Part shown: positions 5,484-15,668 of the stretch, piece by piece | How positions within the stretch are numbered: the stretch's first letter is position 1 | Layout: each line of letters opens with the position of its first letter | Source of the DNA: Comamonadaceae bacterium | GTDB lineage: Bacteria > Pseudomonadota > Gammaproteobacteria > Burkholderiales > Burkholderiaceae_C | Length of the DNA stretch: 37,725 bases | Direction of reading: 5' to 3' | Assembly: GCA_947372495.1 (NCBI GenBank) | Contig: CANBTZ010000003.1 | Span: 1 to 37,725 of the forward strand | Translations under genes and position numbers: made by a program | Notes under the pieces: generated by a model | Databases searched by the model: none | Told to the model about the DNA's origin: nothing | The model's input: only the letters and a program-made list of their open reading frames with translations

Positions 5484-6077
5484 TCAGGTCCCTTTGAGCA
5501 AGATTTTCACGTCTTGCGCCAGCGCGGGTGCACCGCTGCCGTAGCGGTTGTACAAGCGCACGCGCCCTTGCGTGTCAAAGGTGTAGCTGCCTGCGGAGTG
5601 GTCCATGGTGTAGCTGGTCGCACTCTTGCCTTCGACCTTCTTGTAGTAAATCTTGAAATCCTTGGCCACTGCAGCCAGCTGCTCGGGCGTGGCACGCAAG
5701 GCGATGAACGTGGGGTCAAAGTTGGCCATGTAGGCCTTGAGCAGTTCGGCCGTGTCGCGCTCGGGGTCGATGGTGATGAAGACCCCCTGCAACTTGTCGC
5801 CATCGGGTCCCAGCAACTGTTTGACCTGCGCCAGCTCTTGCATGGAAGTGGGGCACACATCGGGGCACTGGGTGTAGCCAAAGAACACGACCACGACCTT
5901 GCCCGCAAAGTCCTTGAGCGTGCGCACCTGGCCATGCTGGTCAGGCAGTTCCCAACCCTTGGCGTAATCGGCCCCGGTGATGTCGACGCCTTTGAAGGCG
6001 GGCTTGTCCTGGCCGCAGGCCGCGAGCAGGGACAGCGCAGCCGCCGACAGGGCAGCCAAAAATTGACGTTTGATCAT
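5484..6077 (-). CDS. SCO1/SenC-family copper chaperone lipoprotein
   Basis: SCO proteins are membrane-anchored thioredoxin-fold copper chaperones that help build the CuA centre of cytochrome oxidase subunit II. From ATG 6077 the product has 197 residues. A lipoprotein signal, LSLLAAC, puts the lipidated Cys at residue 21. The copper-binding CxxxC is GYTQCPDVCPTS (Cys71, Cys75), the thioredoxin-fold segment TIDPERDT follows, and the third ligand His is in MDHSAGSYTFD. The track's 6119 start lies inside ctaB and adds 14 residues before the signal peptide, so I reject it. It is the last gene of the surf1-ctaA-ctaB block, seven bases after ctaB. Confidence 0.95.
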   Translation of the reverse strand: MIKRQFLAALSAAALSLLAACGQDKPAFKGVDITGADYAKGWELPDQHGQVRTLKDFAGKVVVVFFGYTQCPDVCPTSMQELAQVKQLLGPDGDKLQGVFITIDPERDTAELLKAYMANFDPTFIALRATPEQLAAVAKDFKIYYKKVEGKSATSYTMDHSAGSYTFDTQGRVRLYNRYGSGAPALAQDVKILLKGT

Positions 6078-6084
6078 ACCCACC

Positions 6085-6981
6085 TCAGAACAGGTAATGG
6101 TCCACCAGCAACGCGGCAAACAAGGCGCTCAGGTGGATGAGTGAGAAACGGAAAGTCTTGCGCGCCAACTCGTCCGAATATTGCCGCCACAGGGCCACGG
6201 CGTAGCCAATGAAGCCGATGTTCAGTACGACGGCAAAAAACAAATACAGCCAACCGCTCATAAGGGTCATGAAGGGCAACAAGCACGCAGCCAACAGCAC
6301 GATGGTGTAGAGCAAGATCTGCAAACGGGTGAACTCGTTGCCGTGCGTGACCGGCAGCATGGGCAGGCCCGATTTGCGGTAGTCCTCCACGCGGTACAGG
6401 GCCAGCGCCCAAAAGTGCGGTGGGGTCCACAAGAAAATGATGAGGAACAGGATCAAAGCCTGGTAACCCACATCACCGGTCATGGCCGCCCAGCCCAGCA
6501 CGGGCGGCATGGCACCGCTTGCACCACCAATGACGATGTTTTGCGGCGTGAGCGGCTTGAGGATCACGGTGTAAATGACGGCGTAACCCACAAAGGTGGC
6601 AAAGGTCAGCCACATGGTCAAGGGATTGACCATCACGTACAACACCGCCGAGCCTGCAACGCACAAAGCGCCCGAAAACAGCAAGGCTTGGCGGTCGCTG
6701 AGTTCGCCCTTGGCCGTGGGACGCCAAGCGGTGCGCTTCATCTTGGCGTCAATGGTTTTTTCGACCAAGCAGTTGAACGCGGCTGCAGCCCCGGCCACCA
6801 ACCAAATGCCTGCACAGGCCCAAAGACCCAGCACCAGCTCAGGCACACTGGGCAGCCCTGGAACGGCCAGCACCATGCCAATCAAGGCACAAAAAACAAT
6901 GAGCTGCACCACGCGTGGCTTGGTCAGCGCGTAGTACTGCCGCCAAACGGTCGTTGCAGAAAAAGCAGAGGCAGAGGTCAT
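6085..6981 (-). CDS. ctaB: Protoheme IX farnesyltransferase (heme O synthase)
   Basis: CtaB/CyoE adds a farnesyl group to protoheme to make heme O, the first step to the heme A of aa3 oxidases. The 298-residue product is a polytopic inner-membrane protein of the UbiA prenyltransferase superfamily. The first Asp-rich active-site region is [20 protein letters not shown]. The second conserved loop is [24 protein letters not shown], and [11 protein letters not shown] lies in the middle. Its ATG overlaps the ctaA stop codon by four bases (ATGA), which suggests translational coupling of the two consecutive enzymes of heme A synthesis. Confidence 0.96.
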
Positions 6982-8111
6982 GCGACAGGCCTTGAATCCA
7001 TAAAAAGTTGCGAAGCCACCGAAGTGGTGCTGAGCGACAAAGCCCAGGTCAGAGTCATCATCAATGCCGCTGCACCGCCCGTGTGCAGCACGGCTGAGAA
7101 CAAGGGCCAGTCCAACACCACGTTGGACAGGCCCGTGAAAAATTGCAGCACCGACAGCGCCAACAGCGCCTGCGCAGGACGAACCAAGCCCGGCTGCAAA
7201 CGCAGTCGCCAGCCCACACCGAGCAACACCGCCAAGACGACCCAGGCCATGCAGCGGTGGATGTAATGGATGCTGGCCAGCGCCGAGAAGGGCAAAGGCT
7301 GTCCATCGGAGCCCAGCCCCAGTTCACGCCAAAGCCTGAAACCCAGCCCATTCATCTCGGGCCACCATTGGCCCTGACAAGTTGGAAAGTCACTGCACGC
7401 CAGCACCGCGTAATTGGTGCTCACCCAAGCGCCCAAGGCGATTTGCAGCCACAGCAGCAACCAGACCGCCACCAGAGCCCAACGCAGACCACGCGGGATG
7501 ACGACACTGCGCCAGCCTTCGTAGCGCACGGCCTGCATCACCAGCAAAGCCAGCAATCCGATGGCCAACAGCAGGTGCAAGCTCACGATGAGCGGAAACA
7601 GCTTCATGGTCACGGTGAGTGCACCAAAAGCACCCTGCAAGCAAACCCAAACCAAGCTCAACAGCGGCCAGCCTGGGTGAACCGCCAAGCGGCGGTCACG
7701 CCACCACTGACGCCAAGTCAGCGCGCACAAAGCGATGATCAAAACCCCGACGCCTGTGGCCATGTAGCGGTGGACCATTTCAATCCAAGCCTTGCCGTGG
7801 GTCACCGGACCCGTGGGCATGGCCGCCTGGGCTTGAGCAATGTCATGGTGTGCCCCCAGCGGGGTGGCGCTGCCGTAGCAGCCTGGCCAATCGGGGCAGC
7901 CCAGACCCGAGTCGGTCAGTCGCGTGAAGGCCCCCACCAGAACCAACTCGAAGGTGAGGATCAGCGTGAGCACGGTCAGCGCCTTCAAGCGCCGCGCAGG
8001 CCCTGCCGTGCGGTGCTGCCGCCAAGTCCAGAACAAGGGCAGGCCCGCCACCAGCAGGCCCACACCCATGAGCTGCAAGGCCGGGCTGAGGTTGTACAAA
8101 TCCACCTGCAT
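6978..8111 (-). CDS. ctaA: Heme A synthase CtaA (COX15 family)
   Basis: CtaA oxidises the C8 methyl group of heme O to a formyl group, giving heme A. From ATG 8111 the product has 377 residues and begins [20 protein letters not shown], the first of about eight membrane helices. Heme-ligand histidines sit in [30 protein letters not shown] and LHTGG. The N-terminal conserved loop is [18 protein letters not shown], and a second Cys pair occurs in CSDFPTCQG. The start at 8171 in the track would overlap the upstream gene by about 55 bases, so I prefer 8111, four bases after that gene's stop. The 3' end overlaps ctaB. Confidence 0.95.
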
Positions 8112-8115
8112 GGTG

Positions 8116-8829
8116 TCAGCGTCCCGGCTGGTCCCAGGACGCAGAGGCGCGCATGAGGCGCTCCAAGTCACGTTTGGCTTTGGAGGCCGCGGTCATGTCC
8201 ATGTGGGCCGGAAAACGCATCATCCAGTTGCCCATCGGGTCAACCACATACAAATGGTCTTGCAGCGCGTGTCCGGGTGCAGGACTCAACCAACTTTGCA
8301 GTGTGGCGGCGTCCATGCGCAGCGCTTGTGAAGGGTCCAGTGCCGGCAACAATTTGGTCGGCACGGCTGCTTCGTCGTTGATCAGCCACAACCTGTCCAG
8401 ACGGTCTTTGTCTTTGCCAAGTACCTCGCGCAGCTGGCGCTGAAAATACAGGTTCTGCTGGCATGCCGCATCGCATGCACCGCTGCCCACCGACACCAAG
8501 AGCCATTGCCCCTTGAGGCTGGACAACTGCAGTGCTTTGCCCTGCATGTCACGCACCGTGGCTTGCGGCATGTCTTTCGGGGGCGTGACCAGTTCGCCGT
8601 AGTTGCGACGGCTCTCAGGGCGGATCACGTAATACGTGACATACGAAGCGATCACGGGCGCGGCGCACACCAGCATCACCATCAGCATCTTGAAGCGGCC
8701 AGAGACGGTTCGGCGCTCATCGGCCTGAGCCACCTCGCCTGGTGCTGGCATGTCGTGCACGGTCATGGCCAAGGGCACATCAACCGTTTTTTTGTTTTCT
8801 GAGGGGTTGGACAATTTGGAACCAGACAT
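8116..8829 (-). CDS. Membrane-anchored SCO-like thioredoxin-fold protein of the cox cluster
   Basis: The 237-residue product has no standard gene name that I know. A polar N-terminus (1-45) is followed by one membrane helix (MLMVMLVCAAPVIASYVTYYVI, about 48-69). The periplasmic domain looks like a reduced SCO/thioredoxin fold: MQGKALQLSSLKGQWLLVSVGSGACDAAC, then a helix, then DHLYVVDPMGNWMMRFP. The motif CDAAC (Cys119, Cys123) is a CxxxC like that of SCO1, and a His precedes the final strand. Its position between surf1 and ctaA suggests oxidase assembly, perhaps copper or disulfide delivery. Start 8829 overlaps surf1 by 50 bases; ATG 8766 avoids the overlap, but neither has a clear ribosome site. 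Confidence 0.85.
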   Translation of the reverse strand: MSGSKLSNPSENKKTVDVPLAMTVHDMPAPGEVAQADERRTVSGRFKMLMVMLVCAAPVIASYVTYYVIRPESRRNYGELVTPPKDMPQATVRDMQGKALQLSSLKGQWLLVSVGSGACDAACQQNLYFQRQLREVLGKDKDRLDRLWLINDEAAVPTKLLPALDPSQALRMDAATLQSWLSPAPGHALQDHLYVVDPMGNWMMRFPAHMDMTAASKAKRDLERLMRASASWDQPGR

Positions 8830-9523
8830 AAAGTAAGGCGATCAGGGCACTGAGCCCGAACCACTGGAATGCATAACCATGGTGTTTTTCGATGCCCGAA
8901 GCCACTTGTGGCCACTCGCGCAACAAGCCTTCGCTGGCGGGGCCGGCTTGTGCCGCGCTGACTTCCAAGAGCGGCAAGCCTGTTTCAGCACGAAAATCAT
9001 TCAAGTCGAGATTTTGCCGTATCGGGCCCCGCTCCACGCCAGCGAAGTCATACATCCGTGAAGGCCATGGGGCCAAATGCGCTTGCAGGCTCACCTCGCC
9101 CTCGGGGGTGCTGACTTGCGGCAAGCTTTGGCGGTCAGTGAAGGACCGCGCCACCCAGCCGCGTTGCACCAAGATCGCGGCATCTGTCCCAGTCAGCACC
9201 AAGGGGGTCACCACATAAAAGCCTGCACGGCCTTGCATCTGCCGGTTGTCGAGGTAGACGGTTTTGGGGGCTTCCCAGCGGCCTTTGAGCAGCACGGGTC
9301 GGTGCAACAGGGCTTGGCGCTTTTCCAAACCCTCATCAGGCCGACCCAAGTCAACGCCCAGCACTGGCGCCATGGCCGCTTGCGAAAGCCTTTGGTCCAC
9401 GAGCAGCTGCTTTTCATCGGCCCGCCTCAGTTGCCAACGGCCCAAAGCCGCCGAAGCCAGCACCCCAAGGAGCGCAGCCAGCAGAATCAAGGAACGCCCC
9501 CAGGACAAGGAGCGCCCAGTCAT
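8780..9523 (-). CDS. SURF1-family cytochrome oxidase assembly protein
   Basis: SURF1 proteins are inner-membrane factors that help insert heme A into oxidase subunit I. The 247-residue product has the family layout: one N-terminal helix (SLILLAALLGVLASAALGRWQL, with the conserved GRWQLRR just after it), a periplasmic domain, and one C-terminal helix (FQWFGLSALIALLYVWFQIV). Conserved segments include RGWVARSFTDRQSLPQV and ASGIEKHHGYAFQWFGLSAL. The start codon is only 15 bases from the divergent DUF2909 start, so its promoter must lie inside that gene. It begins the second block of the oxidase cluster. Confidence 0.94.
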   Translation of the reverse strand: MTGRSLSWGRSLILLAALLGVLASAALGRWQLRRADEKQLLVDQRLSQAAMAPVLGVDLGRPDEGLEKRQALLHRPVLLKGRWEAPKTVYLDNRQMQGRAGFYVVTPLVLTGTDAAILVQRGWVARSFTDRQSLPQVSTPEGEVSLQAHLAPWPSRMYDFAGVERGPIRQNLDLNDFRAETGLPLLEVSAAQAGPASEGLLREWPQVASGIEKHHGYAFQWFGLSALIALLYVWFQIVQPLRKQKNG

Positions 9524-9538
9524 TGGATAATCCCGTTC

Positions 9539-9772
9539 ATGAAAATCCTTGTTGCATTTGCATTTGTGGCCATTTTGGCCAGTCTGGCCATGGCCTTGGT
9601 GTACATGATGCGCGGCGGCGCACCCAGTTCAGAAGGCCAACCGCGGCCCAAAGGCAATATGGCGCGGGCATTGGCTTTTCGGGTCGGATTTTCCATCCTG
9701 CTGTTCATCTGTGTCCTCATCTCTTGGAAGATGGGCTGGATTCAGCCTTCGGGTATTCCGGCCGGCGCCTGA
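9539..9772 (+). CDS. Twin-transmembrane protein, DUF2909 family
   Basis: This 77-residue protein has two hydrophobic helices, AFAFVAILASLAMALVYMM (about 6-24) and FRVGFSILLFICVLISWKMGW (about 47-67), joined by a polar loop with PRPKGN. Its size, topology and place beside cox genes fit the DUF2909 twin-transmembrane family. I infer the family from the pattern, and no function is known to me. The track gives a 231-residue ORF from 9077, but everything before 9539 is antisense to surf1. It is the only plus-strand gene inside the oxidase cluster, 15 bases from the divergent surf1 start and ending at a bidirectional terminator shared with coxC. Confidence 0.85.
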   Translation: MKILVAFAFVAILASLAMALVYMMRGGAPSSEGQPRPKGNMARALAFRVGFSILLFICVLISWKMGWIQPSGIPAGA

Positions 9773-10755: not shown

Positions 10756-10953
10756 TTAAAAACCGGTGGGTTGAACCACCACCCAATTGACCAGGGCCAT
10801 CAGCCCCAGCACAAATAACAATGCAATCGCAATGCCCACCACAATGATGTGAAAGGGATTGAGACGCTCGGTGTCTTTCTGGTAATCGGCACTTTTGCGG
10901 ATGCCCAAGAAAGACCACAGCACGGCCTGAATGGTGCGCAGCATGGCACTCAT
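10756..10953 (-). CDS. DUF2970 small membrane protein of the cox operon
   Basis: The 65-residue product has one membrane helix, NPFHIIVVGIAIALLFVLGLMALVNWVVV (about 32-60). Before it comes an amphipathic stretch, TIQAVLWSFLGIRKSADYQKD, that is characteristic of DUF2970 proteins, which sit between ctaG and coxC in betaproteobacteria. The ATG overlaps the ctaG stop by four bases (ATGA). Its function is unknown; an accessory role in oxidase assembly or stability follows from position only. MLRTI at residue 4 is a possible alternative start. Confidence 0.9.
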   Translation of the reverse strand: MSAMLRTIQAVLWSFLGIRKSADYQKDTERLNPFHIIVVGIAIALLFVLGLMALVNWVVVQPTGF

Positions 10954-13342: not shown

Positions 13343-14515
13343 TTACTTGCGAGCGGCCAGCACATCCGCTGGTTGCACAATCTGCCCGGTCTTGTTCGAC
13401 CAGTTGTTCTTGGTGAAAGTGATCACAGCAGCGATCTCGGTGTCGGACAGTTGCTTCCACGAGGGCATGGCACCATTGTTTTGACCATTGAGCAGCACAG
13501 CCACTTGCTTGAGTTTGTCTGCATCCAGCACAACAGCCGAACCATCGAGTGGTTTGATCGGACCGGCACCCTTGCCGTTGGCCTGGTGGCAAGCAGCGCA
13601 GTTGGCCGCGTAGACCTTCTCGCCGCGCTTGGACAAATCGTCCAAAGCCCAAACTTTGCTTGGATCGTCCGCCTTGGCCGCTTGTTTCTTCTTCTCGACG
13701 TCCACCCACTTCGCGTAGTCCTCAACAGACAGGACTTTCACATGGATAGGCATGTAAGCGTGTTCTTTACCGCACAGTTCTTGGCACTGGCCGTAGAAGT
13801 CACCCGTCTTTTCGGCGCGGAACCAGGTATCACGAACAAAACCAGGGATCGCATCTTGTTTGATACCGAAAGCAGGCACAGCGAAGGCGTGGATCACGTC
13901 GTTGGCTGTCGTGATCACGCGCACCTTTTTGCCCACAGGCACCACCAAGGGGTTGTCCACTTTGAGCAGGTAGTTGTCGCCTTCGGGTTTGCCCGCGTTG
14001 GACATGGCGCGCTGGCTGGAGTCCAGAGTGGAGATGTAGCTCAGGCCTTCGCCCTCACCTTTGAGGTAGTCATAACCCCATTTCCACTGGTAGCCGGTGG
14101 CCTTGATCGTCAGATCGGCGTTGGTGGTGTCTTTTTGGGCCACCAGCACTTTGGTCGCTGGCAGGGCCATCAAGATCACGATCAGGAAAGGCGCTGCGGT
14201 CCACAAAATTTCAACGGTGACCGACTCGCTGAAGGTCGCAGGCTTGTGGCCCACAGATTTGCGGTGCTTCCAGATGGAATAGAACATCACCGAAAAAACG
14301 GCAATGAAAATCACCGTGCAGATGATCAACATCATCCAGTGCAACCAATGCTGCTCTTCGGCGATTTTGGTCACCGGAGGGGCAAAGTTCAATTGGTTGA
14401 CTGCGGGACCGCCCGGCAAGTCATTGACGGCGTGGGCGGCTGTCGCCAGCATCACGCCTGTGAAGATGCCCACGCGGGACAGCAGCGAAGCCAGTTTTCT
14501 GGAAATGTTCTTCAT
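13343..14515 (-). CDS. coxB: Cytochrome c oxidase subunit II fused to a cytochrome c domain
   Basis: Subunit II takes electrons from cytochrome c at its CuA centre. From ATG 14515 the product has 390 residues. A signal peptide is followed by two membrane helices (about 58-80 and 100-122) and the CuA domain with all ligands visible: His209 (NDVIHAF), then Cys244, Glu246, Cys248, His252 and Met255 in YGQCQELCGKEHAYMP. After a Lys-rich linker comes a c-type cytochrome domain with CAACH (306-310) and distal Met in GAMPSW. The fusion makes this caa3-like in subunit II. The track's start at 14878 adds upstream non-coding and antisense sequence. It is the first gene of the operon. Confidence 0.96.
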   Translation of the reverse strand: MKNISRKLASLLSRVGIFTGVMLATAAHAVNDLPGGPAVNQLNFAPPVTKIAEEQHWLHWMMLIICTVIFIAVFSVMFYSIWKHRKSVGHKPATFSESVTVEILWTAAPFLIVILMALPATKVLVAQKDTTNADLTIKATGYQWKWGYDYLKGEGEGLSYISTLDSSQRAMSNAGKPEGDNYLLKVDNPLVVPVGKKVRVITTANDVIHAFAVPAFGIKQDAIPGFVRDTWFRAEKTGDFYGQCQELCGKEHAYMPIHVKVLSVEDYAKWVDVEKKKQAAKADDPSKVWALDDLSKRGEKVYAANCAACHQANGKGAGPIKPLDGSAVVLDADKLKQVAVLLNGQNNGAMPSWKQLSDTEIAAVITFTKNNWSNKTGQIVQPADVLAARK

Positions 14516-14765
14516 GGTTCTCACAAACTTCCAAGTCACGTTTAGATCCACACCTTTGGCCCCGGCTGTTGCCAGCCCGGGCCAGGCCAGCGCATAACGC
14601 CAAGCCTTTCTTAGGGATTCGCCTCTGATGAATAACATATTCAACAGATTTCTCGCTTGGGCGCAATGCAAACCCCATAAGCGCCAGATGAACTGGACGG
14701 ACGAAATAGCGGCGAATTTTACCTGACTTGTGAATGGGTTTTGATATTTCTCAAAGCCAATGCCA
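14516..14765 (-). promoter_or_regulatory. Upstream region of the coxB operon
   Basis: This 250-base gap should hold the promoter of the minus-strand oxidase operon. I cannot fix -35 and -10 boxes with confidence. The only clear element is a perfect dyad TGAATA-ACA-TATTCA at 14629-14643, about 115 bases before the coxB start, which could be an operator. No small gene is convincing here. Confidence 0.4.
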
Positions 14766-15668
14766 TCAAGTCTTTCTGGCGCTGAGCATCTGGCGCATGT
14801 CGTCCAGGCCAATTTGGCTCTCCGACTGCACTTTGTGGCGCGCCATGGGCTTGAGCGCGTGACCGTACACCACCTCAAACGTCAAGCACAGCCGGCCCTG
14901 CTCATCGGGCCGGGCCAAGGCCTGCAAAGCCTGCATCAAATCGGCCCGCCAGCGGCGTCCACGCAGCCCTGCAAACCTCTGCCCATGCAGGTTTCGGCCC
15001 AGTTCGCGCAGTTCGGCCAGCAAGCGCTCGGGGGTTTCATAACTCAAGGTGATCCGCTCCATGTCCATGACAGGCTCGGCGAACCCGGCATGCACCAGCA
15101 TGTCGCCCCAATCGTGCATGTCGGTGAACTCATGGGCGGGCGCTGGCCAGCCCTTTTGGGCATAAATTTGACGCAATTCCCGCAGGGTATCAGGGCCAAA
15201 ACACGAAAACATCAGAAAACCGTCGACCGCCAGCGCCCGGTGCCAGGCCGCAATCAAGGCCTGCGGGTCGGCCGCATGGTGCAGCTGCATGTTGGCCCAC
15301 AGCATGTGAATCGCCCCTGCGGGCGGGGAGCCCACATGGGCCGCAGGCCCCATCCAGCGCGAAAGCTGCCACCAAGCGCCACGGGTCTGCAAATGAGCCG
15401 CCTGGGCGTGCGCCGCCTGCTTGGCCACCAGCCAGGCCGGGGCTTTGGGGTAGCGCTGCAGCAACTTTTGGTGCGCCTCGATCCCGCCCCGCAACGGCTC
15501 CCAATGCGCCCAGGTTTGGGGCTGCAAACGGATGAAGTCCAGCCGTTCCAGCATGCGAGAGGCTATTTCTTCGTGCAGCCAGGGTGACGCAACACCGTGC
15601 ACAGGCAAAGCAGCCCATCGCTCAGAGGCAAGCGGGTCGAGGGTGGGGGGGCGTTCAGAAGAGGACAT
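14766..15668 (-). CDS. BioC-like SAM-dependent methyltransferase homologue with degenerate motif I
   Basis: The C-terminal half resembles BioC, the malonyl-ACP O-methyltransferase of biotin synthesis. LWANMQLHHAADPQALIAAWHRALAVDGFLMFSCFGPDTLRELR is the post-motif II/III region, followed by FTDMHDWGDMLVHAGFAEPVMDMERITLSYETPERLLAELRELG. But the usual glycine-rich SAM-binding motif I (D/ExGxGxG) is not seen; at the expected place (about residues 57-66) the protein reads EPLRGGIEAH. It may not bind SAM normally. I chose MSSS at 15668 (300 residues); 15698 is the alternative. It is divergent from comF, and no other bio gene is near. Confidence 0.8.
   Translation of the reverse strand: MSSSERPPTLDPLASERWAALPVHGVASPWLHEEIASRMLERLDFIRLQPQTWAHWEPLRGGIEAHQKLLQRYPKAPAWLVAKQAAHAQAAHLQTRGAWWQLSRWMGPAAHVGSPPAGAIHMLWANMQLHHAADPQALIAAWHRALAVDGFLMFSCFGPDTLRELRQIYAQKGWPAPAHEFTDMHDWGDMLVHAGFAEPVMDMERITLSYETPERLLAELRELGRNLHGQRFAGLRGRRWRADLMQALQALARPDEQGRLCLTFEVVYGHALKPMARHKVQSESQIGLDDMRQMLSARKT

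Follow-up and report, generated by a model that had tools for sequence, protein, structure and literature searches.

The window analysed here, a 37,725-nt stretch of DNA from a Comamonadaceae bacterium, contains a cytochrome oxidase gene cluster laid out on one strand in the order COX2-COX1-COX11-65-aa ORF-COX3-SURF1-PA0111-like gene-COX15-COX10-SCO. Judging from the C-terminal cytochrome c domain on COX2, the cluster is of the caa3 type. The COX2 ORF (13343..14878, minus strand; PF00116 and PF13442) also carries the CuA motif CQELCGKEHAYM, and its true start probably lies inside the ORF, below 14878. The 65-aa ORF between COX11 and COX3 (10756-10953, minus strand) encodes a one-helix protein that we take to resemble DUF2970, and a DUF2909 gene (9539-9772, plus strand; PF11137, E 4.8e-21) is located on the opposite strand between SURF1 and COX3. 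SURF1 (8780..9523, minus strand; PF02104, E 3.6e-33) precedes the PA0111-like gene, which is followed by the COX15/CtaA heme A synthase with its cysteine pairs CPDWPGC and CSDFPTC (6978..8111, minus strand, likely start 8111; PF02628, E 5.9e-73), the COX10/CtaB heme O synthase of the UbiA family (6085..6981, minus strand; PF01040, E 2.9e-69) and a SCO1/SenC lipoprotein (5484..6119, minus strand, likely Met start 6077; PF02630, E 1.3e-44). The last of these had been named as the canonical SCO1 of the cluster in an earlier note on this DNA, and its lipobox LLAAC and the motifs CPDVCP and YTMDHS bear out that identification.

The PA0111-like gene (8116..8829, minus strand) encodes a protein of 237 aa. 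It shares 50 nt with SURF1 at one end and stops at the probable start of COX15. Relatives whose alignments run from residue 1, among them one at 81% identity that belongs to the same genus, support the start codon. The Kyte-Doolittle maximum at about residues 46-68 (8626..8694, minus strand) fits a single membrane anchor, and the AF2 model places a long helix at residues 32-68, in agreement with the membrane anchoring proposed in the earlier note. Further along the protein are CDAAC (residues 119-123; 8461..8475, minus strand) and RQLR (residues 131-134; 8428..8439, minus strand), which represents the RQxR of the family signature CxxxC-x7-RQxR. These are followed by D191-H192 (8254..8259, minus strand), which lines up with the His that SCO uses as a copper ligand, and by DPMG (residues 197-200; 8230..8241, minus strand), the DPxG signature that closes the strand after D191-H192.

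The earlier note had described this product as a second SCO-like protein of the oxidase cluster, with CDAAC in a short thioredoxin-like domain; the ORF is real, the motif is in place, and the predicted fold is that of a thioredoxin. Of the two outcomes that the note gave as refuting it, a fold unlike thioredoxin and cysteines not conserved in orthologues, neither was observed. The AF2 model, built from a 38-sequence alignment, has a pLDDT of 87, and the top Foldseek matches in the PDB are SCO proteins (4hde, 4wbj, 4bpy) and TlpA, the leaders also including the TlpA-CoxB and TlpA-ScoI mixed-disulfide complexes 4txv/4txo. At the sequence level, the protein scores 16.9 bits against the Pfam SCO1-SenC profile (PF02630), below the gathering score of 22.8, and matches the NCBIfam model PA0111_fam (NF058629) with an E value of 8.4e-13. 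This model matches all 38 aligned relatives (best relative E 1.3e-27). Searched against solved structures, the profile of the PA0111-like family retrieved ScoI (E 1.2e-14) and human SCO2 (3.4e-8), the matches to human SCO2/SCO1 being at about 1e-7 to 1e-8, and TlpA at only 0.23.

These profile matches tie the window protein, as a diverged homologue, to the PA0111/PP_0108 family (NF058629, 'redox-active disulfide protein'), with which it shares the gene slot between SURF1 and the heme A synthase gene, but from which it differs in reaching 48.6 bits where the NF058629 cut-off is 230; betaproteobacterial members differ further in having D-H ahead of the DPxG strand. The suggestion that such proteins are usually left as hypothetical is apt in that PA0111 has been called uncharacterised (PMC13128677), but a named NCBIfam family does exist, its cut-off being missed here. 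Searches of a plasmid collection and of PHROGs for the PA0111-like family gave no match, and no gene fusions pointing to a partner were found among the relatives. Long open frames were rejected as fusions, being upstream read-through of overlapping frames.

With the SCO1/SenC/PrrC proteins (PF02630; Bradyrhizobium ScoI, human SCO1/2), the PA0111-like protein shares the thioredoxin fold, the membrane anchor, the CxxxC motif and a gene in an oxidase cluster. It differs from them in its sub-cut-off Pfam score, in the absence of both prolines of the SCO-type CPxxCP around CxxxC, in a ligand His confined to one clade, and in a loop that is 3 residues shorter. In the window, the PA0111-like protein and SCO are 26% identical over 78 residues. 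In a 101-row tree, the PA0111-like family and SCO fall apart with support of 100; this separation, together with the sequence distance, indicates that the PA0111-like protein is not a recent SCO duplicate and forms a clade of its own within the SCO superfamily. It resembles Bradyrhizobium TlpA in being a membrane-anchored, probably periplasmic thioredoxin-fold protein, and the role of TlpA as reductase of ScoI and CoxB is the kind of role proposed here; unlike the TlpA/ResA oxidoreductases, it lacks CxxC plus cis-Pro, and the sequence match to TlpA is poor. The window's own genome also encodes a TlpA-like lipoprotein with CTTC (L002:1285-1779, minus strand), adjoining cytochrome c- and b561-like genes, which is another candidate periplasmic reductant.

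The CxxxC motif is almost invariant: C119 and C123 are present in 157 of the 158 distinct relatives, the single exception having CxxxxC, so that CDAAC in the window protein is not a chance match. The complete C-x3-C-x7-RQxR signature is found in 133 of the 158. All 159 rows of the alignment have W109, C123 and D221, D197 and P198 are each present in 158, and G200 in 156. Position 191, the expected place of a cis-Pro, is mostly occupied by D, G, E, Q or N, and never by Pro. A few diverged members keep the gene slot with the cysteine pair lost or shifted (L195:1648-2178, L198:2161-2607 and L155), the altered motifs among them being PPCHHAN, CxxC in a 149-aa form, and CxxxxC.

The histidine shows a different pattern. 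A later His in the right order for copper binding had been pointed out in the window protein, and H192 does pair with the SCO ligand His in a profile-profile alignment, with 3 residues deleted after it, but it is not conserved across the family. Its conservation is limited to one clade (support 99), to which the betaproteobacterial members belong and in which 15 of 16 rows have it; outside this clade, Arg or some other residue usually takes position 192, and His turns up in a few dispersed rows. Most gammaproteobacterial members have no His there, including those from genomes in which no SCO was detected. With the tree rooted on SCO, the betaproteobacterial clade is nested, and the His accordingly looks acquired in that branch, although the counts of changes alone cannot separate gain from loss. 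SCO-like copper binding is thus not family-wide, and the near-invariant CxxxC combined with a clade-restricted His favours, on residue conservation, a redox role as the one common to the family.

We examined the distribution of the gene across the class Gammaproteobacteria in the broad sense, including betaproteobacteria. It is present in 113 of 121 genomes of the window's own family, and a profile search of the class found a clear match (E about 1e-19 or better) in 151 of 274 genomes. In the phylum sample outside the class nothing convincing was found; the only two matches near 1e-16, both from one family, are provisionally read as SCO-type. The upstream neighbour is SURF1 in all 80 named loci from other genomes, whereas the downstream neighbour varies (COX15 in 52, COX10 in 27, a second COX2 in 1). 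In the locus with the second COX2 (L096), a second COX2-COX1-COX3 set stands directly behind the PA0111-like gene, before COX15.

Among 56 class genomes that have SCO and/or COX15 and were scored negative for the gene, SURF1 was present in only 8. Four of these 8 have a diverged member of the family between SURF1 and COX15, and a fifth has a short, further diverged member behind SURF1; at L197 (G037) and L199 (G213), SURF1 is there and no PA0111-like member was found beside it. In the 151 gene-bearing genomes, SCO was detected in 134 and COX15 in 147, in counts that ignore kinship and include many incomplete MAGs. The constant SURF1 neighbour and the rarity of SURF1 among the negatives, compared with these co-occurrences, make the linkage to SURF1 tighter than that to SCO or COX15. 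The PA0111-like gene lies directly behind SURF1 in the oxidase clusters of most SURF1-carrying beta- and gammaproteobacteria.

The candidate clients were compared through genomes that carry the gene and lack one or another of them. SCO, scored at 1e-15, failed in 17 of the 151 gene-bearing genomes; a relaxed search of these yielded a divergent SCO-like match in 4 and, in the other 13, no SCO besides the PA0111-like gene itself and weak matches. SCO and the PA0111-like protein are therefore not an obligate pair. A search for PCuAC detected none in 12 of the 13 SCO-less genomes and in 16 of the 17 that failed at 1e-15. COX11 was not found in three genomes carrying the gene and was rejected as an obligate partner. 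Heme c ligation on COX2 was likewise rejected, since 16 COX2 ORFs beside the PA0111-like gene have CuA and no CxxCH. SURF1 is cysteine-free in 104 of 155 members and has no conserved cysteine. Leaving aside masked and frameshifted sequences, all COX2 proteins that could be recovered, those from SCO-less genomes included, have an intact CuA motif CxxxCxxxHxxM. In one genome that is 96% complete (L145, G118), a CuA-type COX2 and the PA0111-like gene are present, and SCO, PCuAC and COX11 all went undetected. The gene can occur without any given one of the other cysteine-bearing partners, and the CuA motif is intact, which speaks for CuA as the shared client; the argument is one of elimination, made on genomes some of which are incomplete and with counts that ignore kinship.

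On balance, we favour, with modest confidence, the view that the PA0111-like protein is a dedicated CuA assembly factor of COX2, most likely a thiol-disulfide reductase. One N-terminal helix would anchor the protein, placing the thioredoxin domain in the periplasm, where CxxxC would reduce the two CuA cysteines of COX2 and make copper loading possible. SURF1 may be part of the assembly complex at which this reduction takes place. In genomes that also encode SCO, that of the window among them, copper would be carried mainly by SCO, with the PA0111-like protein as the reductant; in betaproteobacterial members, the His at the place of the third SCO ligand might additionally allow the protein to bind Cu(I) itself. 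Both window proteins carry the C-x3-C...D-H pattern, as in betaproteobacteria.

That the CuA cysteines are reduced ahead of metallation is well established, and a division of labour between two SCO-type proteins has precedent: TlpA reduces ScoI and CoxB in Bradyrhizobium, Sco of T. thermophilus reduces the CuA cysteines while PCuAC delivers the copper, and in humans SCO2 works as a thiol reductase alongside the metallochaperone SCO1 (PMC6696091). The reductase reading is nevertheless weakened by the spacing of CxxxC, which is that of SCO copper binding and not the CxxC of classical reductases, by the missing Pro at the expected cis-Pro place, and by the few members in which the cysteine pair has been lost or shifted.

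The foremost alternative is that the protein is a second copper chaperone, which would bind Cu(I) through the two cysteines (and His192 in betaproteobacteria) and hand it to CuA, beside SCO or in its place. Membership of the SCO superfamily and CxxxC itself speak for it, as do the alignment of D191-H192 with the SCO ligand and its retention throughout most of a well-supported clade. Moreover, the PA0111-like protein is the sole SCO-like protein detected in 13 genomes, with CuA intact in those from which COX2 was recovered, and the 12 of them without detected PCuAC still need a copper supply, for which it is the obvious candidate. However, the His is absent from most gammaproteobacterial members even in SCO-less genomes, where the need would be greatest, and the loop is shorter than that of SCO, so we consider this alternative rather unlikely. 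The proposal of the earlier note, that the two SCO-type proteins of the cluster share CuA assembly as copper donor and thiol reductase, is thus plausible as regards CuA, with the reductase part favoured, but with the ligand His in one clade only, copper donation is not the common role of the family.

A role alongside SURF1 in placing heme A in COX1, with CxxxC structural or regulatory, would fit the tightest linkage of all, yet it sits poorly with the SCO-superfamily fold and a near-invariant CxxxC; SURF1 offers no conserved cysteine partner, and adjacency by itself gives no mechanism. We regard it as improbable.

Still less credit can be given to the idea that the substrates of the protein are the cysteine pairs in the adjacent heme A synthase, COX15. 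The COX15 gene is often directly downstream and nearly always present, the adjoining copy almost always belongs to the cysteine type, and the cysteine pair of ECL1 matters for the activity of B. subtilis CtaA (PMC8239418). Nevertheless, in all 20 gene-bearing genomes checked that have a remote, type-2 COX15, this enzyme is without the ECL1 pair, on which ground COX15 reduction was rejected as a general role, and COX10 rather than COX15 is the next gene in 27 loci. Reduction of SCO itself, modelled on the TlpA-ScoI relation, is equally hard to credit, given that 13 gene-bearing genomes have no detectable SCO, although SCO accompanies the gene in most genomes and the TlpA-ScoI complex is among the structural matches.

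For PA0111, the open-access literature yielded expression data and no functional study: the gene is strongly upregulated when biofilms disperse (PMC13128677) and in response to a nitric oxide donor (PMC13024080). In the published gene order it is flanked by PA0110 and by PA0112, which encodes heme A synthase (PMC13128677); work on the caa3 cluster of P. aeruginosa mentions PA0107 and PA0112-0114 and leaves PA0111 unnamed (PMC5436846). For the family as a whole, we tentatively suggest a history, itself doubtful, in which a lineage of the SCO superfamily found only in beta- and gammaproteobacteria can assume the assembly of CuA and serves as the sole SCO-like factor where SCO and PCuAC are missing, the betaproteobacterial branch having separately acquired a SCO-like His and moved from reductase to copper binder.

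Most of what is known of cytochrome oxidase assembly comes from work on alphaproteobacteria, Bacillus, Thermus and mitochondria. The PA0111-like protein is linked to SURF1 across the broad-sense gammaproteobacteria, and it did not turn up when a 2022 review on assembly factors of bacterial oxidases was searched by term (PMC9145763). Which factor reduces CuA and which one supplies its metal can be addressed directly in genomes that have CuA and in which neither SCO nor PCuAC was detected, and the His-bearing and His-less branches of the family may serve as a natural experiment on these two steps.
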